A DNA stretch of 24,286 nt from a virus. This document shows positions 11,690 through 23,212 of this stretch, in pieces. The stretch spans positions 1 through 24,286 of IMG/VR virus record IMGVR_UViG_3300025138_000343. One strand, given 5' to 3'. A model generated the notes under the pieces. That model had not been told where the DNA came from and searched no databases. It was given only the letters and a program-made list of their open reading frames with translations. Position 1 is the first letter of the stretch, and the number at the start of each line of letters is the position of its first letter. A program made the translations under genes and the position numbers.

Positions 11690-11724
11690 AAAAAAAAAAG
11701 AGGCCTAATTATTTAAGCCTCTTT
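11690..11724 (-). terminator. Strong intrinsic terminator between head and tail gene blocks
   Basis: On the minus strand AAAGAGGCTTAA pairs with TTAGGCCTCTTT over 12 base pairs (one G-T wobble) around an ATAA loop, at 11724-11697. It is followed directly by at least seven T (11696-11690) beyond the stem. This is the classical rho-independent form, oriented to stop transcription coming from the head genes. It lies 24 bases after the stop of the 184-residue gene. Confidence 0.9.
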
Positions 11725-11747
11725 GTCAATTTAAGATTTATTAGTTA

Positions 11748-12302
11748 CTATACTGTAGCAATATTTAAAACTAAACTAGAAGGAAGGTCCCATTCATATT
11801 TAACTGCGGGCCATGGTTGTTGTAAAGATTCTACAACAGCTTCTTCAAAACCATCTCTCATAGCTTCACTCCCAGCAGCAGTTGCTGCGTGAGTAATTTT
11901 AACTACAATTCCACTTGAACCGCTGTATTGAATATTTACTTCACTATTGATTGGGTCAACAGGGTCATTTTCCACAAGTACTACTCCATCAGAAGCAATT
12001 AATTGTTTAGTTGATTGGTCAGAAGCATAAATTATATAGTTTTTGCCAGACTCTAAACCTGTTCCTGAAGTAGAACCAATTGCTGATAAACTTACTGTGT
12101 TTAAATCTACAACTGTATCTACTACATACATTCTATCATCTGACGTATCGTGAACCACGTCATTAGCTTTAATACCATCTGTAACAAAATCAGCACTACT
12201 GTCAGTTAATTCAAGATTACCTGATTCATCTGCTGTTGTAGTTCCACTTGCAAGAGACTTTTGTACTGAAACTTCAACATATTTTTGCATAGAGCTATTC
12301 AT
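11748..12302 (-). CDS. Putative capsid decoration/head protein, enlarged paralogue of the 92-residue protein
   Basis: The 184-residue protein has two parts. Residues 107-184 align with residues 20-92 of the gene just before it (VKITHAATAAGSEAMRDG here, VTITHAAIGASSEKMRDE there, and LPSS near the end in one, IPSS in the other). Residues 31-94 are a beta-rich module (LTDSSADF, NDVVHDTSDDRMYVVDTV, LNTVSLSA, NYIIYAS) also present in the ring protein. The first residues (MQKYVEVSVQ) resemble the start of the small paralogue (EKFLQIPV), so this protein looks like the small one with the module inserted after the first strand. The ATG overlaps the previous stop as TAATG, so the two are translationally coupled. 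Met5 is an alternative start. Placement after the capsid gene suggests a head decoration or fibre role, which is inference. Confidence 0.6.
   Translation of the reverse strand: MNSSMQKYVEVSVQKSLASGTTTADESGNLELTDSSADFVTDGIKANDVVHDTSDDRMYVVDTVVDLNTVSLSAIGSTSGTGLESGKNYIIYASDQSTKQLIASDGVVLVENDPVDPINSEVNIQYSGSSGIVVKITHAATAAGSEAMRDGFEEAVVESLQQPWPAVKYEWDLPSSLVLNIATV
12021..12212 (-). repeat. Beta-rich insertion module, copy in the 184-residue protein
   Basis: Residues 31-94 carry ELTDSSADFVTDGIKANDVV and then DTVVDLNTVSLSA and IIYAS. Strand order and spacing match the ring-protein copy at 11104-11295, apart from an extra Gly/Ser loop before the last strand. Confidence 0.55.
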
Positions 12303-12580
12303 TATGCTATATCTATATTACTCACTGCTGAGCTTGGGATGTAATCATATACAACGCTTGTCCAGCCTGTCTCTAAAGCTTTAACGATTGCAGTTTGTAC
12401 TTCATCTCTCATTTTTTCACTACTTGCACCAATTGCTGCGTGTGTGATAGTCACAACTTTACCTGAGCCATAAGCTAAAGTTACAGTTGTTGTAGAAGCT
12501 TGTTCTACTAATTTAACGTCCAGTATTGAAACAATTTGTTTTTGTTCACCAGTTACTGGGATTTGTAAAAATTTTTCCAT
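12302..12580 (-). CDS. Small putative head/decoration protein
   Basis: The 92-residue protein has a short N-terminal strand (FLQIPVTG), a central strand region (VTLAYGSGKVVTITHAA, residues 33-49), a helix (SEKMRDEVQTAIVKALETGW, 54-73) and a C-terminal strand segment with IPSS. I do not recognise a named family. It is the minimal form of the fold also present in the next gene. It follows the capsid-adjacent gene by 46 bases, with a promoter-like TATCTTTG box 31 bases before its ATG, so it may be made in large amounts independently of the upstream genes. That would fit a decoration or other abundant head protein. This is inferred from context only. Confidence 0.55.
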   Translation of the reverse strand: MEKFLQIPVTGEQKQIVSILDVKLVEQASTTTVTLAYGSGKVVTITHAAIGASSEKMRDEVQTAIVKALETGWTSVVYDYIPSSAVSNIDIA

Positions 12581-13385: not shown

Positions 13386-13421
13386 TTTATTTAAAATTTA
13401 ATTTGATTAATAAAAATATTA

Positions 13422-13441
13422 GGGGAGTAGTATAACTCCCC
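13422..13441 (-). terminator. Hairpin after the capsid gene, possible weak terminator or mRNA stabiliser
   Basis: On the minus strand GGGGAGT pairs with ACTCCCC over 7 base pairs with a 6-base loop, 20 bases after the capsid stop codon. It is followed by TAATATTTTTATT, an imperfect T-rich tail. No promoter box follows before the next gene, so full termination would silence it. Partial termination or protection of the capsid message 3' end seems more likely. Confidence 0.6.
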
Positions 13442-13461
13442 CAACATTAGTTAAATACTTC

Positions 13462-14934
13462 TTATGAATTTTGGAATAAGAAGAAGTTGTTTGCTCCTAA
13501 GACACAAACTGCTCTTTCAGTTAAAAAATTAACTTCCATAGCATCTAAATCAGAAGTTCTTGCACCACCAGCAGAACCAGTAATCCAAGTTTTATATCTT
13601 CTATCTTCAGCTTCTGAAGCTCTATACCTTACATGTAAGAATGGTCTTTTAGCGTTTTTACCAAGTATTTGGTCATAAACCGAAGTAGAACCAGCTGGAA
13701 CTAATAGTCCATTGATACCACCTGCTACTAATCCACCTCTCATTGTAGGGTCATTTAGATACTTCCAGTCAGACTTGTAAAAGTCATAACCTCTTCTAAA
13801 TCCAGAGAAACCTAAGTTAAGTGCCATTTCTTCATCATTGTCAAAAAGACCGTATGATGTACCGCCACCCCCGTAAGAGTTTTGTGTAGACAACATATCG
13901 TCTATATCAAATGAGAAGTTTCTATTTACGAAAATTACATTTTCTTCAATAGCACCTTGCTTATCTAGTCTTTGAATTATATTATCAAAGTCAGCTAATG
14001 ATGTTGGGTTACCGCCACCAAAAACGTTTCCTCTGTTTCCAACTACGTAGAATACACCTTGAGAACCACTTAATCCAGCTACTGAATTACCAGCTCCAGT
14101 ACCTTGGAGATAATCTCCTGCACCTGACGCTGCTTCTGCTGGAACCGCTTCAATCATAGCTGTTTCCATGTAATCTTCAAATCTTAATCTTGTGTCGTGT
14201 TCAGATTTTAGATACCATAAGTATCCGTTTACTCCGTCTTCTCCACTTACTTCTACCCATCCAATTTGAGCCATGTCAGAACCAGATACTGAGTATTTAT
14301 CTTTTATGATAATTGGTTTATTATCAAAAAATAAATCATCAGATTCTAAAGAACCATCCATACCGTCTGTTCCTTTTGCAAATTCAGAACCATAGATAAA
14401 GATGTCACAGGCTACTGCGCCCATTGCTTGTCCTCCTGCTTCATAATAAGATACTGTAAAGGTATTAGGATTTGCATCCGTTGGACCTGCTGTTACAATA
14501 GCTTTGTTTTGAAGGTTAGAACCAGGTGTGTTATCTGAAATCATTAATGTTTGTCCTACTCTAAGAACATTTTTTGCATCTCTAGCTGTATTGGGGTTAG
14601 CCAATGCAGGGTTAAAGTTTGCTATGTTGTTAGGAATTGTCCAAACCGCTCCAGCGTCTGTACCTGCAGCTGCTGCTGAAGTACATCCTTTGTATTTGAT
14701 GTGTAATCTTCCTTGTTCTGCCCATTTGATAAGGTCAGAATTAGAAGGCATTTCTGCTCCTACCATACGTAGGAACGAACTAATGCTTCTGTTACCATAT
14801 CTTTCAAATTCTTTCTCGTAAGTATCGGGTAGATACTGGTTCAAGAAATCAAAATCTTTGATATAATTCGTTGCAACAGGAACCTGTTGCGCTGAAGGTT
14901 GTAAGTCGAAGCCAGGGGCTGTGTTTACTGCCAT
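13462..14934 (-). CDS. Major capsid protein (HK97-fold expected, crAss-like)
   Basis: The 490-residue protein is the expected size for a crAss-like major capsid protein and sits in the expected order after portal and scaffold. The N-terminal part has KDFDFLNQYLPDTYEKEFER, then NRSISSFLRMVGAEMPSNSD and KWAEQGRLH (about residues 26-78), a pattern that I recall from this family. The body alternates Gly/Asn-rich loops with acidic and aromatic strands, including VFGGGNPTSLADFDNIIQRL and GYDFYKSDWKYLNDPTMRGG. The C-terminus (HVRYRASEAEDRRYKTWITG, then NFFLFQNS) is compact. No obvious processing site is seen, so a delta domain is not evident. The start context is AATTATGGCAG, without a Shine-Dalgarno sequence, 20 bases after the scaffold-like gene. 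A stable hairpin follows the gene. The HK97 fold is an expectation from the family, not read from the sequence. Confidence 0.75.
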   Translation of the reverse strand: MAVNTAPGFDLQPSAQQVPVATNYIKDFDFLNQYLPDTYEKEFERYGNRSISSFLRMVGAEMPSNSDLIKWAEQGRLHIKYKGCTSAAAAGTDAGAVWTIPNNIANFNPALANPNTARDAKNVLRVGQTLMISDNTPGSNLQNKAIVTAGPTDANPNTFTVSYYEAGGQAMGAVACDIFIYGSEFAKGTDGMDGSLESDDLFFDNKPIIIKDKYSVSGSDMAQIGWVEVSGEDGVNGYLWYLKSEHDTRLRFEDYMETAMIEAVPAEAASGAGDYLQGTGAGNSVAGLSGSQGVFYVVGNRGNVFGGGNPTSLADFDNIIQRLDKQGAIEENVIFVNRNFSFDIDDMLSTQNSYGGGGTSYGLFDNDEEMALNLGFSGFRRGYDFYKSDWKYLNDPTMRGGLVAGGINGLLVPAGSTSVYDQILGKNAKRPFLHVRYRASEAEDRRYKTWITGSAGGARTSDLDAMEVNFLTERAVCVLGANNFFLFQNS

Positions 14935-14954: not shown

Positions 14955-16082
14955 TTAAACTTTTTTAATACTTTTAATTTTGAGTCCTCTTCCACTCGTT
15001 GTGTCACCTACAGGTCTTATTTTTAAACCATCCTTCGTATTTAATTGAGGGGCTCTACGAACATCCATATTGATGTTTTTAGATTTTCTTGCTACATCAT
15101 CAACTGTTGCAGCAACACCTTGCTCATAAAAAAACTTTGCAAATTTTTCTGGATTCATAGCCATTGCTAAAGCTTTGTGATAGCCTTTTGCATCAGTCAT
15201 GACTCCTTCGTTATTAGTAAATTGTGATACAAAATTACCAACATCACTTTGCTTGTTTTTTAATTCATCCGAAGTACCTGGTTTAAAAAGTAATTTTTTT
15301 TCATCACTCACGTTAAATTCAAAACCTTTGAATTCTTCGTTAAACACATTGTTTGTAAGCTCTTGAAAATATTCACGACTTTTCTGCGCTTGACTCTTTT
15401 GAGAGTTAGATTCTTCTATCATTTTCTTGTAAGCACTAAGATTGTTTTCTTGGTCTTCAGATAATCCACCCCCACTTGACTCAAGAGGAATTTTATATTT
15501 ATCTTTCTGCTCTTTAAAAAACTTCTTCGCTTTTCCAAGCTCTCTTTTTTTAGCTAATTTTTTTCTCTTAATATCACGTTCTTCATCTTCGTCTTCGTTG
15601 AACCCGAATTTGTCTTCCATGACATCTTGAATATCAATAGCATCAAGACCATCTTCTTGCGTGCTAATGTAATCAGCTAAAACAGAATCTTCGTCCATGT
15701 TATCGTAGTCTTTTTGTAATTTGTAAAAGTCTTCAATACCACGTCCAGTTTCTTTCTTGTAATTAAAATATAACTCAACATCTTCAGGTAAAGCCACGTT
15801 TGATTCTTTTGTTTCAAACAATTCTTCAACTGAATTAATGTCTTTATTATATCTGTCTTTAATAAAATTAAGAACGTTTTCGTCATTTAACTCTGACGAG
15901 GGAGGTTTTTCTTCAACCTTTGGTTTTTCAACTTCTGGTTCTTGTATTTTCTCTGTTAGTTGTACTTTTTGCTCAGGTTCAACTTGTTCGTTTTCAGAAG
16001 AATGCTTTTCTAAAAGTTTTTCTTCTATTTCTGCGGCTGATTTTTGAGTGATGCCTTCCACTGATTTTACTTTAAATTCCAT
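14955..16082 (-). CDS. Charged scaffold-like head assembly protein
   Basis: The 375-residue protein is highly charged. Residues 1-70 are rich in Glu, Lys, Gln and Pro (EKIQEPEVEKPKVEEKPP) and probably disordered. Residues of about 125-170 are acidic (Asp/Glu runs ending in NEDEDEERDIK) and are followed by a strongly basic helical stretch (KRKKLAKKRELGKAKKFFKE). Central residues are Gln/Ser/Lys-rich and helical (SNSQKSQAQKSREYFQELTN). The C-terminus is basic (GRGLKIKSIKKV), as in scaffolding proteins that bind the capsid shell through a basic helix. The position directly before the capsid gene supports this. A promoter-like TAATTTTG box lies 17 bases before its ATG, so scaffold and capsid may be transcribed together as a booster unit. 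No protease motif is visible. Confidence 0.65.
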   Translation of the reverse strand: MEFKVKSVEGITQKSAAEIEEKLLEKHSSENEQVEPEQKVQLTEKIQEPEVEKPKVEEKPPSSELNDENVLNFIKDRYNKDINSVEELFETKESNVALPEDVELYFNYKKETGRGIEDFYKLQKDYDNMDEDSVLADYISTQEDGLDAIDIQDVMEDKFGFNEDEDEERDIKRKKLAKKRELGKAKKFFKEQKDKYKIPLESSGGGLSEDQENNLSAYKKMIEESNSQKSQAQKSREYFQELTNNVFNEEFKGFEFNVSDEKKLLFKPGTSDELKNKQSDVGNFVSQFTNNEGVMTDAKGYHKALAMAMNPEKFAKFFYEQGVAATVDDVARKSKNINMDVRRAPQLNTKDGLKIRPVGDTTSGRGLKIKSIKKV

Positions 16083-16099
16083 TAGATTAGATTTTTATA

Positions 16100-16107
16100 C
16101 AAAATTA
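16100..16107 (-). promoter_or_regulatory. Putative -7 promoter element before the scaffold-capsid unit
   Basis: The minus strand reads TAATTTTGTA, which fits TAnnTTTG, 17 bases before the ATG of the scaffold-like gene in a 46-base gap. It differs from the four TATCTTTGT boxes in the two free positions. It would serve the scaffold and capsid genes. No -33 element is evident. Confidence 0.4.
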
Positions 16108-16128
16108 AACAATAATTAATTACTATTT

Positions 16129-16665
16129 TTAAGCGTTCTTTAGATGATTATAAAGACTCTCGCCTAACTCTTCTCCTACTTTTTTGTCAGATTCATAATG
16201 AACTCTGGCTGCAATTCTACTTTTTGAAATATGATTAGCTGCGGTAATAAATTCATTATGCATCTCAGGATATAAATCTGATAACATTAATGCAACTAAT
16301 TTAGCCTGAGCAGAATGCCCAGACGGAAATGAAGGTGTTTGTGCACTTTTCATTTTATGATAACGAAAATTAAGACTTAAATAATTAGCAACAACATTTG
16401 GTCTTTGCCTGTTATGATAATTTTTTATACTTAATATGATAGGTTCTGAATGTGTTAGTAAATCTTTTACTAATTTTTTAGGATACTTTCGTGTTCTATT
16501 TCTAAAAAGATTTTTAAAAACATTTACAATGTTATCATAAGTGTCTGCATAGTCTGTGTCTAATGGACCTGCCTGAAGTGTTTTTATTTCACTTAAAGTT
16601 TTCAGACTATGATTTGGGGGTACAACAATTCTCTTAAATTTTTCTATACTAAAATTACTAAACAT
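16129..16665 (-). CDS. PAP2-superfamily phosphatase (class A acid phosphatase type), soluble
   Basis: The 178-residue protein carries all three PAP2 motifs in order with correct spacing: K81-x6-R88-P89 (KNYHNRQRP), P114-S-G-H117 (FPSGHSAQ) and S149-R150-x5-H156-x3-D160 (SRIAARVHYESD). The catalytic His of motif 3 and the His of motif 2 are both present, so the enzyme is probably active on phosphate monoesters. There are no clear membrane spans and no signal peptide, unlike many lipid phosphatases, so a soluble or virion-bound enzyme is likely. The gene lies 5 bases after the portal stop, inside the packaging and head block. Its substrate is unknown: lipid phosphate, polyphosphate, nucleotides or a haloperoxidase-like reaction are all possible for this superfamily. 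It may act during DNA delivery or on host phosphate metabolism, which is inference. Confidence 0.88.
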   Translation of the reverse strand: MFSNFSIEKFKRIVVPPNHSLKTLSEIKTLQAGPLDTDYADTYDNIVNVFKNLFRNRTRKYPKKLVKDLLTHSEPIILSIKNYHNRQRPNVVANYLSLNFRYHKMKSAQTPSFPSGHSAQAKLVALMLSDLYPEMHNEFITAANHISKSRIAARVHYESDKKVGEELGESLYNHLKNA

Positions 16666-16670
16666 ATTGT

Positions 16671-19106
16671 TTATTTAGGTCCAAACTCTGACAAATCAAA
16701 ACCATCTAAAGAATCCTCATTTGATTCAAAAGACATAGCTGGTAAATTTCTTTTACGTTGTTCAATTAATTGTGATTGCTGAGAGTTAGCTTGACTAATT
16801 CTTTCAGACTTTCCTTTTTCTTTAGATTTTTCTCTCATATCAATTTGAGATTGTTCAATCCCTTTTAATTGCATATTATAAGAAAACTCTGTTTCCATTA
16901 ATTGAGCTTTTAACATAGCTTCGTTTTTCATCTTTTCAATCTCCATTGCAATCTCTGCTTGTTTAATTTGCATTGTAGATTGCATTTCAGCTGCTATTCT
17001 TTGTTGTTCAGCTTGTGCAACCATCATTTGTTGTTCTTGTTGCATTTGTGCTGCAGCTTGTTGTTGCTGCATTTGAGCTTGTTGTTCTGCTTGAGCTTTA
17101 CGTTTACGTTTTGTTTTTAGTAATTGATTAGCCATTTTAAGATTATGAATCTCTCTAATGTCTAATGCATCTTCTAAGTTTATATCGTTTTTAGATAAAG
17201 CCATCTGAATATTTTGTTCTAACATAGCTCTTTGTTCTTCGTCAGGAGCTAGTTCTAAAAATATTCCAAAGTCGTATAGATAGAAGTTTTTAATATCTTC
17301 TAATAAATTTAAATTATATTTTCCAATTTGCATTGCAAACTGGTCTGCAAAAGGAGAGTATTCTAAAACATCTGCAGTTCTTAACACAATACCTTCTGCC
17401 ATTCTTTTAGTAATAAATAAACTTGCTAATAAAATATGACGAGTTGCGGTATTAGAGCTTAATGCTGCTAATTTTTGAACTCCAACTAATGCGTCTGGAT
17501 TTGGAGACGTTCCATCTCTTGCTTCGTTTAAACCAGTTACTGTTCTAATCATATCTAAATAATGATTATAGTTCTGAATTAACATTTGCATTTTTGCTCC
17601 TCCACTATTGGATGTTAACTGAGTTATAGGAACTTTAGCATTATTAAATTCTCCGTCTTGAGTAAAACTTCTCCCTATAACACTACCTGTTTGAAAATAT
17701 AAACGCAATGCGTCTTCAGGATTATAAGCATTACCAGTACCTAAGTCTACTTCATTAAGTCCATCAGCGTCAATAAAAACACCATCTGGAACCATACGAG
17801 ATATAACTTGCTGTAATTTTAAATGAGTAACTTGAATTAAATCTGCAAAAGGAATCATTCTACGAACTAAAGATTCATAAGTTCCTTTATACATTCTTGG
17901 TGCGCATGCTACGTAATTAGGAAGGGCGTGTTGACTTGCTGATTTGGGTCTTACCATGTTTTCGGCTAACTCCCATTTCAATATCATGTTTGTTCCCATT
18001 ACCATAATTCCGTCATACCATACTTCTATTTTCTTTTCTACTCTTTCAAATTTACCTTCTGCCATCATTTCTTCTGGCGGATTAAATTGGTCGTCTTTAG
18101 CTACAACTTTAAAGGAGCCATCTGGCATTTCTTTTTTCTTGTAAACAAAAGTATGAGTAGTTTTATAATTGTAATAAAGAAGCGTGCAAGTATCTCTATA
18201 AAACAAAGAGTTTTCGTAGAACTGAGAATTATTATAGTAATTATACCACGATTGACTAGAAGCAGCAATTTCTTCCATTTGCTCGTTAGTAATATCAGGA
18301 TTTATCTTTACTAATTCTGCCATTGGGATAGTTTTAATTTCTCCCCAATAAAAACAATCTTTAAAGTAAGGGTCTTCAGTATAACTGTATACCACATTAG
18401 CTGGGTCTACATAATCTAATTGAATACCTTGTCCTGGTAAAAACTGATGTTTAGACATTCCAACTCCTAAAGTCATTATATCATAATCAACTCTTTTTCT
18501 AATATCCGCATAATGGTTTTGTTGTAATACAGTGTCTATAGCTTGTTCTGCTGCAATTTCTACAGCTGGCTTATATTTCATTTGCATATACAACTCTAGT
18601 TCTTCATCGCTTTCTGGAAGCTCCTCTTCATTTGTTTGAAAAACATTTAATTTAAAATCTTCTTCTATTTGTTGGAACAATGGTCTAGCAACCATTTCTC
18701 CCTCTATTCTTTTTTGAAAACTATCTCGTTTTTCTGCAGACATAGCATCTTCTGCAAATGCATTTACCTTAAACAACCTATCGTTTAAACCATTTACAAC
18801 AATGTCTACAAATTTTGGAATAATAGGAACAGGAGTCCAATCTAAATTTAAGTAAGACAAATCTCCGTCTACTGCAATTTCGTTTTTATATTTTTGAACA
18901 GACTGCTCTCCACGAGCATATAGTCTTAACCGATTAAACTCTCCCCATTGATTGAGGAACCTACATGAGCCGCTATCTTTTCTAAACCATTCGTATTGAA
19001 TCGACTGTCCGACTTGGAGTCCATACTCCATTGTGTCTTTTTGCGCGTCCGAAGCAAATTCGTTAGGAAATGCAGCTGCTTTTAAGTTAATATTTACGTC
19101 TTTCAT
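16671..19106 (-). CDS. Portal protein, crAss-like, with Gln-rich coiled-coil barrel
   Basis: The 811-residue protein is the length of a large crAss-like portal. The N-terminal part has QSIQYEWFRKDSGSCRFLNQ, then EFNRLRLYARGEQSVQKYKN and VPIIPKFVDIVVNGLNDRLF (about residues 35-112), the 'W...R.YARG.Q....YK' to 'IPK..D...N....R' order that I recall from this family. The middle (about 205-560) contains the wing and stem-like parts, with DYDIMTLGVGMSKHQFLPGQ and LDYVDPANVVYSYTEDPYFK. From about 660 to the end the protein is a long helical, Gln- and Met-rich coiled coil (QAQMQQQQAAAQMQQEQQMM), suited to a barrel. The ATG overlaps the terminase stop as ATGA, so the two are translationally coupled. 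It forms the ring at one head vertex through which DNA enters and leaves. Confidence 0.85.
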   Translation of the reverse strand: MKDVNINLKAAAFPNEFASDAQKDTMEYGLQVGQSIQYEWFRKDSGSCRFLNQWGEFNRLRLYARGEQSVQKYKNEIAVDGDLSYLNLDWTPVPIIPKFVDIVVNGLNDRLFKVNAFAEDAMSAEKRDSFQKRIEGEMVARPLFQQIEEDFKLNVFQTNEEELPESDEELELYMQMKYKPAVEIAAEQAIDTVLQQNHYADIRKRVDYDIMTLGVGMSKHQFLPGQGIQLDYVDPANVVYSYTEDPYFKDCFYWGEIKTIPMAELVKINPDITNEQMEEIAASSQSWYNYYNNSQFYENSLFYRDTCTLLYYNYKTTHTFVYKKKEMPDGSFKVVAKDDQFNPPEEMMAEGKFERVEKKIEVWYDGIMVMGTNMILKWELAENMVRPKSASQHALPNYVACAPRMYKGTYESLVRRMIPFADLIQVTHLKLQQVISRMVPDGVFIDADGLNEVDLGTGNAYNPEDALRLYFQTGSVIGRSFTQDGEFNNAKVPITQLTSNSGGAKMQMLIQNYNHYLDMIRTVTGLNEARDGTSPNPDALVGVQKLAALSSNTATRHILLASLFITKRMAEGIVLRTADVLEYSPFADQFAMQIGKYNLNLLEDIKNFYLYDFGIFLELAPDEEQRAMLEQNIQMALSKNDINLEDALDIREIHNLKMANQLLKTKRKRKAQAEQQAQMQQQQAAAQMQQEQQMMVAQAEQQRIAAEMQSTMQIKQAEIAMEIEKMKNEAMLKAQLMETEFSYNMQLKGIEQSQIDMREKSKEKGKSERISQANSQQSQLIEQRKRNLPAMSFESNEDSLDGFDLSEFGPK

Positions 19107-21352
19107 GAATTAATAATTCGACTAACTTTATCGCTGTTATTATATCTTGCAAAGTTAATGCTTATTTTTGTTTTTTCTTTGGTCGGTGTATACAAGTGTT
19201 TTTGATTAGCCATTACAGCTAAACCTGAACTTATAGAAGCATCAAACTTGGTTCTGTTGTTAATATCAAACTTTGCCCAGTCTTCTAATGTACGTTGAAA
19301 ATATGTATCTCCCATATCACCTTCTGTTCTATATACTCCATCTAAATCTAATCCCACATACTTTTCTATATATGATTCAATAGCTGAAGCATGAGATTGT
19401 TTTACGTCTTCAGATGTATTTGGTATTCCTCCCAATTCTCTTTCTGTTTTAGAAAGTTTGTTTAAAGATTTATCAGGTCTGTTTAAACAGAACCCTCTAT
19501 ATCCCCTGTTTTTAAAGTGATATAATAAACGAGGTTTATTATTCTCTACTAAAATAGGCATGCCATAAAAAACACACGCCATCAAAACTTCTTCAAAAAA
19601 TATCTCTGCCGTTTGAGGTCGAGCTATATATTCTAAGAAGAAATGATTACTAGGCATATCTTCTAAACTAAACTTAGTTAATCCATGTAAAGAACCGTTA
19701 GACCCTTTACCAACTACCACTCCTGAAATGTCATACGAATCACAACCAAATGACCCTAAATGCTCATTTCCAGGATAAAATCTATTTCCCTTCTTAAATA
19801 CATTGTTTTGAAGGGAATGCTTAGGTATGTAAGTTACAAAAAATCTTCCTCTTTTATTTGGAGACCATATTACTTTAGAATCTTTAATACCATCTTGCCA
19901 ACTAAATGAACCTTGCGTAATAAAATGTTCTTTTATTATACTATCATTATAATCTATTTGTTGATATAATTTAGTTAAATTAAATATAGATTGTTTACTC
20001 TCATCTCTAAACGCATGAGATTCTGTTCTAGGGAATTGTCTGTAATATTCATTTAAAGCATCAGGGTCATTTTTTAATGACACTACTTCATTTTCCCAAT
20101 AGTTTACAGCACCTTGATAAATATACTCATTATCAATTCCTTTGATTTCTTGTTCTGGAGTATCTAAAACAGGCATTCCATATAGGTCTATAAATCCTTC
20201 CATATTCCATTCCATAGGAACGAAAAGGGAATATAACCCGCTTTTAGTTTGACCGTTTGCGTTTCGCTTAGTGCAATCAGAATCATTATATAAATCCTTA
20301 AAGTTTCGTCCTCCTTTATCTAATGCATTAGAAGTAGAACCCATCATGCATTTACCAATTATTTTACTACCTAAACGTAAACAAGTTTTTGTAACACGCC
20401 AATTGTTTAATATGTTTTCAGGTCTTTCCCATTTACCACTTTCATCATGTATTAATAACTGTAGTTTTTCTCCATCATAACTGTTATCAGAAGTATTCTT
20501 CCAATCGACTGTAGTATCCAATCCTTCTAAAACATTTTCTTCTATATTAAACATGTTTTTTTTAGTAATCTTAGAAGCAGGAACACGATAAGCTAATTCT
20601 GTTTTTGGTTTATCCATACCGTCTTGTATGGGTTTAAAAAAGAAAGGATAGTTGTTTGATATAGGAACTATTTTATCAGTAAACATTTTTTTTGCATCCG
20701 CACCAGTTTTTGATAAAATACCTATACGAGCGTTTTTTGTTATAGTGCCTGTGTTTACTCCTTCGCAAGAACTCATAAATGAAAAACCTGAACGTCTTAT
20801 TTTTAAATAACACATTCCAAAACTTCTTTTATCTGCTTTACAAGCTTCCCAAAAAATATAAAAAATTCTATTTGCTTCTCTAAAATCTGGATGCCCAATA
20901 TCTATCTTGGTCCATTGCAAATACATATAGTGAGTACCTGTTAAATAGGTAGGTTTGCCATCATTATAAAACCAATACCCTTTTTCTCTTTTATTAAACT
21001 CATCTTCAATATAATCTATCCATTGATTTTTAAATGTAGAGGGCGCGTCATGCCATTGAAATATAGTGGGTATTCTTTTTAATGCAGGCGGTAATTCTTG
21101 TACCTCCCAAAACTGTTCTTCTTTTTTTTCACTACGTTTAAACGCAGTCATTGGAGCTTTGGGCAAAGCAATACGTAATCCAGAAACATGAATAACTTCA
21201 CCTATTGTGCCGTCTTTAGAAATATTAACTAAATCATATTTTTCATTATATCCATAAGACCAGGTCCTCGCTTTATTTTTTCGAGTTAATATGTTTTTAG
21301 GAATAAGTCCTTTACATATATTAAATATTCTATTTTGACCTTGATTCTGCAA
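19103..21352 (-). CDS. terL: Terminase large subunit, packaging ATPase-nuclease (crAss-like)
   Basis: The 749-residue protein carries an ATPase half and a nuclease half. The Walker A-like loop is at about 184-196 (KIRRSGFSFMSS), lacking the classical GK[ST] but of the RRxGFS type that I recall in crAss-like TerL. Walker B is at 298-304 (QLLIHDE, with D303 and the catalytic E304). The coupling motif lies near 337-348 (MMGSTSNALDKG). The RNase H-like nuclease has D538 in FGCDSYDISG, E603 in ILVENN and D704 in KFDASISSGLAVM as likely metal ligands. It powers DNA translocation into the prohead and cuts the concatemer. The start overlaps the 90-residue gene by 23 bases and the stop overlaps the portal start. 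The class of packaging (headful or other) cannot be told from this window. Confidence 0.92.
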   Translation of the reverse strand: MQNQGQNRIFNICKGLIPKNILTRKNKARTWSYGYNEKYDLVNISKDGTIGEVIHVSGLRIALPKAPMTAFKRSEKKEEQFWEVQELPPALKRIPTIFQWHDAPSTFKNQWIDYIEDEFNKREKGYWFYNDGKPTYLTGTHYMYLQWTKIDIGHPDFREANRIFYIFWEACKADKRSFGMCYLKIRRSGFSFMSSCEGVNTGTITKNARIGILSKTGADAKKMFTDKIVPISNNYPFFFKPIQDGMDKPKTELAYRVPASKITKKNMFNIEENVLEGLDTTVDWKNTSDNSYDGEKLQLLIHDESGKWERPENILNNWRVTKTCLRLGSKIIGKCMMGSTSNALDKGGRNFKDLYNDSDCTKRNANGQTKSGLYSLFVPMEWNMEGFIDLYGMPVLDTPEQEIKGIDNEYIYQGAVNYWENEVVSLKNDPDALNEYYRQFPRTESHAFRDESKQSIFNLTKLYQQIDYNDSIIKEHFITQGSFSWQDGIKDSKVIWSPNKRGRFFVTYIPKHSLQNNVFKKGNRFYPGNEHLGSFGCDSYDISGVVVGKGSNGSLHGLTKFSLEDMPSNHFFLEYIARPQTAEIFFEEVLMACVFYGMPILVENNKPRLLYHFKNRGYRGFCLNRPDKSLNKLSKTERELGGIPNTSEDVKQSHASAIESYIEKYVGLDLDGVYRTEGDMGDTYFQRTLEDWAKFDINNRTKFDASISSGLAVMANQKHLYTPTKEKTKISINFARYNNSDKVSRIINS

Positions 21353-21602
21353 ATCCTTTAGGGGTGTTATTTTTAATTTCTATACCATCTATTTTATCTC
21401 TTTCTTCGTCAATTCTTTTTAATATTTCAAATGCATCAAATAAAGCAAGTTTTTTTGTAGCTGCTGCATTTTTTAATTTGTCTGCAGCCAATTCATCTTC
21501 AGGGTCAGGTTTTATAATTTTTGCTTTAGCAACTTGAATTAATTCTTTTACAGCTTTTTCACCTGCTTCTATTATTTCTAATTTAATTGCTTTGGTATCC
21601 AT
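21330..21602 (-). CDS. Small helical protein before terL, candidate small terminase
   Basis: The 90-residue protein is almost wholly helical and charged: KAIKLEIIEAGEKAVKELIQ (residues 4-23), then DELAADKLKNAAATKKLALF (36-55) and AFEILKRIDEERDKIDG (57-73), with a basic, flexible C-terminus. No helix-turn-helix motif stands out. It overlaps both the previous gene (20 bases) and terL (23 bases). Position directly before terL and small helical build are those of a small terminase subunit, but no diagnostic motif supports it and some phages of this type have no recognised small subunit. The alternative is an unrelated small head protein. Confidence 0.5.
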   Translation of the reverse strand: MDTKAIKLEIIEAGEKAVKELIQVAKAKIIKPDPEDELAADKLKNAAATKKLALFDAFEILKRIDEERDKIDGIEIKNNTPKGFAESRSK

Positions 21603-22164
21603 CTGTTAAAGTTATATTATTCGTGTACATTCTATATAGCTTTTCCCCTTCTATGTTAAATTCATATTCACTATCAGGCTGAAAAGAAACTTTGTCTCCT
21701 TCTTTTAATCCTAATGTTTCTAAAGATTTATTTCCATATTTTATTTTACCCCACAAAGGTTCTTCTGTAACACCTACTCCGTCAATAAAACTCTCACCCT
21801 TTGGTATAGGTTCAATAAAACAAAAGTTATTATGACTATACCATTTATTGTTTTGTTTATACATGTAGAATTGATTGTCATCTACTAAAAACAAGTCATC
21901 CATTAGCCAGCTTCTACCGCTTTTTTGTCTACCATACATATCGTTGTAAAATTTAAAAACATTATGATGAACCACTAATGTATCATTAATTTTAATAGGA
22001 CCGTTATAATTTAAAGGTATATTAATAACAACAGCTAGTCTTGTAGAAACAGTAAAGTCTTCTTCTGATGTACTGGTAAAAAATCTTTTATCTCCATAAT
22101 ATTTAATATTATCGTAACGCCTATCATTGTAGGGTTTTACTATAAAGCAAAATGGAGACTGCAT
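21583..22164 (-). CDS. Possible tandem GroES-like (Cpn10-like) fold protein
   Basis: The 193-residue protein reads as two similar beta-rich halves. In the N-terminal half FIVKPYNDRRYDNI (7-20) resembles the opening strand of GroES (I.P..DR). AVVINIP and KINDTLVVHHNVFKFY (58-73) resemble its V..GD.V.F segment, and SWLMDDLFLVDDNQFYMYK (85-103) resembles the closing 'D.ILA' strand. In the C-terminal half FCFIEPI (114-120), KEGDKVSFQPDSEYEFNIEG (154-173) and KLYRMYTNNITL (175-186) repeat that order and match GroES more closely. The reading is from pattern only. The ATG overlaps the previous stop as TAATG, and the stop overlaps the next gene. The protein lies just before the terminase pair, so it may be a chaperone for head assembly or simply use the fold as a structural part. 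No mobile loop is evident. Confidence 0.45.
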   Translation of the reverse strand: MQSPFCFIVKPYNDRRYDNIKYYGDKRFFTSTSEEDFTVSTRLAVVINIPLNYNGPIKINDTLVVHHNVFKFYNDMYGRQKSGRSWLMDDLFLVDDNQFYMYKQNNKWYSHNNFCFIEPIPKGESFIDGVGVTEEPLWGKIKYGNKSLETLGLKEGDKVSFQPDSEYEFNIEGEKLYRMYTNNITLTDGYQSN

Positions 22165-23204: not shown

Positions 23205-23212
23205 CAAAGATA
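23205..23212 (-). promoter_or_regulatory. Putative Bacteroidota-type -7 promoter element for the packaging block
   Basis: The minus strand reads TATCTTTGTAA, 31 bases before the ATG of the 89-residue gene, in a 60-base gap after the fibre-like gene. The spacing and the nine-base core are the same as at 12612. No hairpin terminator precedes it and no -33 TTTG is evident. Confidence 0.55.

Follow-up and report, generated by a model that had tools for sequence, protein, structure and literature searches.

Sequence comparison and a predicted fold define a branch of phage-encoded phosphatases that are soluble, class-A-like and free of a signal peptide, with their gene in an accessory slot at the 3′ end of a terL–portal gene run. 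The member described here lies in a viral contig of 24,286 nt (hereafter the window). Its gene, annotated as PAP2 / class-A-acid-phosphatase-like, occupies 16129–16665 on the minus strand and runs from an ATG to a stop codon, specifying a protein of 178 aa (20.5 kDa, pI 9.7, no cysteine). Members of the branch are common among environmental contigs but lacking in deposited phage genomes and PHROGs, so that routine annotation relying on these two collections would overlook them.

The PAP2 protein, its relatives and its predicted fold

The window protein matched Pfam PF01569 (PAP2) with 44.6 bits against a cut-off of 27.2 (E = 1.5 × 10−11), and the three motifs of the superfamily (KX6RP, PSGH and SRX5HX3D) were all present with exact spacing. 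Motif 1, KNYHNRQRP (pattern KXXXXXXRP; 16399–16425, minus strand), contains K81, R88 and P89. Motif 2 is PSGH at residues 114–117 (16315–16326, minus strand), in which H117 is the expected general acid, and motif 3, SRIAARVHYESD (pattern SRXXXXXHXXXD; 16186–16221, minus strand), contains S149, R150, the expected nucleophile H156, and D160. Neither a membrane helix nor a signal peptide was found in the protein, whose top 19-residue Kyte–Doolittle mean was 0.58. The first-pass annotation had described a soluble protein of 178 residues with three exactly spaced catalytic motifs, and the open reading frame, the Pfam match, the motif positions and the absence of a hydrophobic segment bear out that description. 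The protein is a complete, soluble PAP2 enzyme that is probably active.

An IMG/VR protein scan identified 22 contigs with a full or near-full copy of the gene, and in all 22 it lay between portal and scaffold. Two profile scans confirmed 105 and 205 stretches, and 80 from each set were retained. All of the catalytic residues named above, including the whole of PSGH, were unchanged in 79 distinct proteins with pairwise identities down to 40%, and the order portal–PAP2–scaffold was the same at every locus with examinable flanks. Median dN/dS (pairs with dS of 0.2–1.5) was 0.15 for PAP2, higher than that of portal (0.04) and lower than that of scaffold (0.20); by this measure PAP2 evolves under purifying selection. 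Judged by these comparisons the enzyme is genuine and kept intact by selection. A stray insert, a decaying gene and a sequencing artefact were also considered, and are ruled out by the 79 distinct homologues, the fixed place and the purifying selection. The first-pass annotation had allowed for a chance insert, missing at this place from all relatives; relatives do carry PAP2 at the same junction.

No close homologue was found in 50,697 deposited phage genomes (INPHARED), in which only three records gave matches, all of them weak and partial (27–31% identity), and none of the phages in culture was found to carry the gene. The family had no PHROG match, and a description of it was not found in open-access papers on phage PAP2 or phoN. 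We rejected recent acquisition from a host, as there was no close cellular relative (best match 46% over 59 residues, in other phyla) in a single scan of genomic contigs that used short peptide patterns, which divergent relatives can escape.

An AlphaFold2 model based on a 33-sequence alignment had a mean pLDDT of 97 and superseded an earlier model with 21 sequences (pLDDT 78). It has the all-helical PAP2 fold, and its top match among solved folds was the class A acid phosphatase PhoN (Z = 17.3, 2.7 Å, 172 residues aligned). That match spans residues 1–178, so the predicted class A fold extends over the whole length, including the N-terminal part; in the model the N-terminus is integral to the fold of the enzyme and not an appended targeting tail. 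Scores were lower for LpxE (Z = 14.4) and PgpB (Z = 7–9.5), haloperoxidases and glucose-6-phosphatase also ranked below the class A acid phosphatases, and sequence profiles too placed the latter as the best solved relatives. NCBIfam PhoC matched weakly in 12 of 12 diverse members, the best E of 1.6 × 10−6 being far under the 430-bit equivalog cut-off. Class A enzymes carry the signature GSYPSGHT around PSGH. The window has TPSFPSGHS there and the family TP[AS]FPSGHS, and the N-terminus, having no hydrophobic segment, lacks the export signal of a periplasmic class A enzyme. Since the protein has neither the export signal nor GSYPSGHT and falls short of the PhoC cut-off, it is best termed class-A-like.

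The first-pass annotation had named lipid phosphate removal at the envelope, phosphate supply to the host and a pyrophosphatase-like step as possible roles. The features above bear on two rival roles. Phosphate scavenging, in which the phage enzyme would release phosphate for the host from dissolved organic phosphate and its gene would be, strictly speaking, an auxiliary metabolic gene, would suit a relative of PhoN and PhoC, which are exported phosphatases. However, the protein has neither signal peptide nor membrane anchor, and its gene is not recognisably a recent cellular import, the nearest cellular sequences being weak, partial matches in other phyla; we consider this role very unlikely. 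Dephosphorylation of lipid or undecaprenyl phosphate at the envelope, for example before lysis, is the least probable of the roles we weighed. Lipid phosphatases, PgpB and LpxE among them, belong to the PAP2 superfamily and align with the predicted fold, but they are membrane proteins and the soluble class A enzymes are a better fit to a protein with no membrane helix. Lacking both membrane segment and export signal, the phage protein is thus less likely to have a lipid or periplasmic role.

The portal–scaffold junction and its predicted transcription units

Directly upstream of PAP2 on the minus strand is the portal gene (16671–19106; PHROG 6547, E = 2.8 × 10−140), which belongs to the same gene run as that for the terminase large subunit, terL (19103–21352, minus strand; PHROG 6681, E = 2 × 10−174). 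Downstream on the same strand are a putative scaffold gene (14955–16082, 375 aa; PHROG 16786, of unknown function) and a putative major coat protein gene (13462–14934, 490 aa; PHROG 13704, virion structural protein). The labels scaffold and coat were assigned from position and composition and, for coat, also from PHROG 13704. The placement of PAP2 inside the head block, between portal and putative scaffold, had been proposed in the first-pass annotation, and the PHROG 6547 portal and the homologous loci agree with it. In the window 5 nt separate the portal stop codon from the PAP2 start, and in most relatives (43 of 76 distinct cases) these two codons overlap in the sequence TAATG (2 nt spacing).

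The portal is 44–65% identical to those of ctfjg026 (Manatee Spring), Maribacter phage Panino and the Flavobacterium elemo phages, and similar DNA was also found in Cellulophaga phages. The hosts of related phages are Flavobacterium, Cellulophaga and Maribacter, and the uncultured viruses with PAP2, the window included, probably have hosts in the Bacteroidota. Elsewhere in the window, the packaging run includes a GroES-like gene (21583–22164); a related long contig (G001:C1) has a GroEL-like gene (57002–58603) and a second GroES-sized gene (58964–59221). Genes of 184 and 92 aa (window 11748–12302 and 12302–12580) form a tandem duplication with a similar C-terminal part (~40% identity), and both are missing from some relatives.

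Presence of PAP2 at the junction varies. Following 115 distinct portals we found PAP2 in 57 cases, nothing in 48 and another small ORF in 10, these being proportions of a sample shaped by the queries. Relatives without PAP2, found via the portal, have ~53 nt from portal stop to scaffold start, or a small ORF. The small ORFs encode basic proteins of 95–118 aa, or one of 44 aa, some relatives have a basic ORF plus PAP2, and among the ORFs tested none had a Pfam match. Examples are at L008:2861–3190 and L028:1435–1722 and at the junctions of L109, L112, L134, L145 and L156; the basic ORFs are lysine/arginine-rich, several having glycine-rich hydrophobic stretches. The slot was empty in relatives with portals ~80% identical, at least six changes of PAP2 presence were placed on the portal tree, and related genomes share their flanks whether or not they hold the gene, as expected of optional cargo in a fixed slot.

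The PAP2 tree broadly tracks the portal tree at depth, with exceptions. One locus (L019) has a portal ~90% identical to that of the window and a PAP2 just 57% identical, which groups with the PAP2 of L054. The simplest reading of these trees is that PAP2 has been resident for long, with losses and with exchange of alleles. The 105-kb contig that holds L054 (and L232), IMGVR_UViG_3300030101_004148, carries two different PAP2 loci ~60.9 kb apart, near one genome length, and is probably two related phage genomes fused in assembly. A further protein of 112–121 aa, with HExxHxxQ and LPWE, was encoded on 9/10 long (>53 kb) PAP2-bearing contigs and 0/5 long PAP2-less contigs, a suggestive co-occurrence that comprises three independent contrasts only and is not significant. 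It is zincin-like (for example G001:C1:60949–61293, on the contig behind L036, and relatives) and had no Pfam match.

Patchy presence, with gains or losses at a single slot and alleles swapped among lineages, is what conflict genes typically show, and this distribution makes counter-defence a fair rival explanation, with the phosphatase destroying a phosphorylated nucleotide made by the host as an alarm or signal. Known counter-defence genes are mostly early, whereas PAP2 sits in the late head block, and PAP2 enzymes have no known counter-defence role. Class A enzymes do cleave nucleotides (PMC8475336), as this explanation would have it; we regard it as unlikely overall.

Predicted promoters suggest where the gene run ends. 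A Bacteroidota-type −7 element, TAATTTTG (16100–16107, minus strand), lies after the slot and before the scaffold gene, the consensus being TAnnTTTG (PMC6847099). TAnnTTTG occurred within 60 nt 5′ of the scaffold ATG in 71/80 distinct sequences, mostly 23–25 nt upstream, compared with 3.4% in shuffles. A conserved GCYTAAAA precedes it by ~19–27 nt and overlaps the stop codon of the preceding gene, in an alignment that was anchored on TAnnTTTG and is informative for flanking positions only. In the window this upstream promoter-like element, GCTTAAAAA (16126–16134, minus strand), overlaps the PAP2 stop codon, and in empty-slot relatives the same element overlaps or comes after the portal stop. 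A predicted −7 element, TATCTTTG, at 23205–23212 (minus strand), a single-sequence match 39 nt before the g89 start, is a possible start of a g89-to-PAP2 transcription unit.

An intrinsic-terminator-like hairpin of 14 pairs lies 3′ of the coat gene (13415–13448, minus strand), and 12 terminator-like sites were found in the region, compared with 4.7 expected. A sigma-70 scan of the region gave sites no more numerous than chance, as expected if the promoters are Bacteroidota-type; such elements are consistent with relatives that infect Bacteroidota. With a predicted promoter after the slot and a predicted terminator after the coat gene, the scaffold and coat genes seem to constitute a separate unit, which would make PAP2 the last gene of the terL–portal run. 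At 11697–11775 a terminator-like hairpin with a TATCTTTG promoter element directly behind it, close ahead of the start side of the gene for a 324-aa virion protein, suggests that the structural block is divided into several transcription units.

Possible roles of the enzyme in infection

We lean, at slightly under an even chance, towards an optional, late, cytoplasmic, class-A-like phosphomonoesterase that aids the infected cell and is dispensable for the particle. PAP2 would probably be co-translated with portal and, as its operon suggests, produced late, in the cytoplasm of a host from the Bacteroidota. In PAP2 chemistry the nucleophilic histidine forms a phospho-enzyme and a second histidine acts as the acid. 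The phage enzyme would hydrolyse small soluble phosphomonoesters, most likely nucleoside monophosphates, through a phospho-histidine intermediate with H156 as nucleophile and H117 as acid, and the benefit would fall to the nucleotide or phosphate economy of the infected cell. Class A PhoC hydrolyses UMP and AMP (PMC8475336). This cytoplasmic role is the most economical because the protein shows no feature of export or of membrane attachment and the closest relatives of known activity cleave soluble monoesters, including nucleotides. Activity, timing, location and substrate are read here from the motifs, the predicted fold and the operon context.

Two points weigh against a phosphomonoesterase in the cytoplasm. 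Cellular class A enzymes act outside that compartment, and a broad phosphatase free within it could harm the phage, so the actual substrate may be narrow. The other is the strict linkage to portal at every locus, which could reflect dosage coupling to the head. PAP2 matched in dosage to portal might act on the head itself, for instance with phosphorylated head proteins, nucleotides or DNA ends as its substrates at the packaging step, or be carried in the particle as an entry enzyme. We find this quite doubtful; if true, it would be a virion-linked class-A-type phosphatase used by some phages of one lineage and replaced or dropped by others.

The first-pass annotation had taken the position of the gene as a sign of packaging, assembly or entry, a suggestion that does not hold up well: the slot is optional, it ends where the scaffold–coat promoter starts, and the N-terminus is part of the fold. 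A role in the virion or its assembly, with the enzyme packaged in the head or bound near the portal and active during DNA packaging or post-entry, would account for the constant place of the gene, either directly behind portal or with a single small ORF in between, for the frequent overlap of its start with the portal stop, and for a product as basic as this one (pI 9.7). We nevertheless judge it decidedly unlikely, as many close relatives whose portal and coat genes are similar lack PAP2, the slot also houses unrelated small ORFs, and no packaging tag was seen in an N-terminus that lies within the fold. Packaging in virions is thus possible but unsupported, given that many relatives make a similar head without PAP2. 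A place between head genes is a weak guide to packaging, being here an operon-end cargo slot before a promoter. Natural pairs with and without the gene, at one exact slot in otherwise similar phages, make the role of PAP2 directly testable.

Comparison with known systems

The elemo phages, Panino and ctfjg026, which are podovirus-type phages of Flavobacteriia, have the same terL–portal–scaffold–coat order as the window. Unlike the window, they have no PAP2 and their slot is empty. An uncharacterised viral protein of 176 aa (UniProt A0A1B1IV46, in BFVD) has 40% identity to the window PAP2 over 178 columns and a TM-score of 0.94; by sequence and modelled structure it belongs to the same family.

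Membrane-bound PAP2 lipid phosphatases such as LpxE and PgpB share superfamily and catalytic residues with the phage protein. They are, however, membrane proteins with hydrophobic helices and lower fold scores, whereas the phage PAP2 has no transmembrane helices. The class A enzymes (Salmonella PhoN, Escherichia blattae EB-NSAP and Morganella PhoC) have in common with it the PAP2 motifs, their exact spacing, solubility and a predicted fold that matches over its whole length (Z up to 17.3) at 18–23% identity. Solved class A chains are ~210–235 aa long, compared with 178 aa for the phage PAP2, which, unlike them, has no signal peptide and is encoded in a phage head-gene operon.
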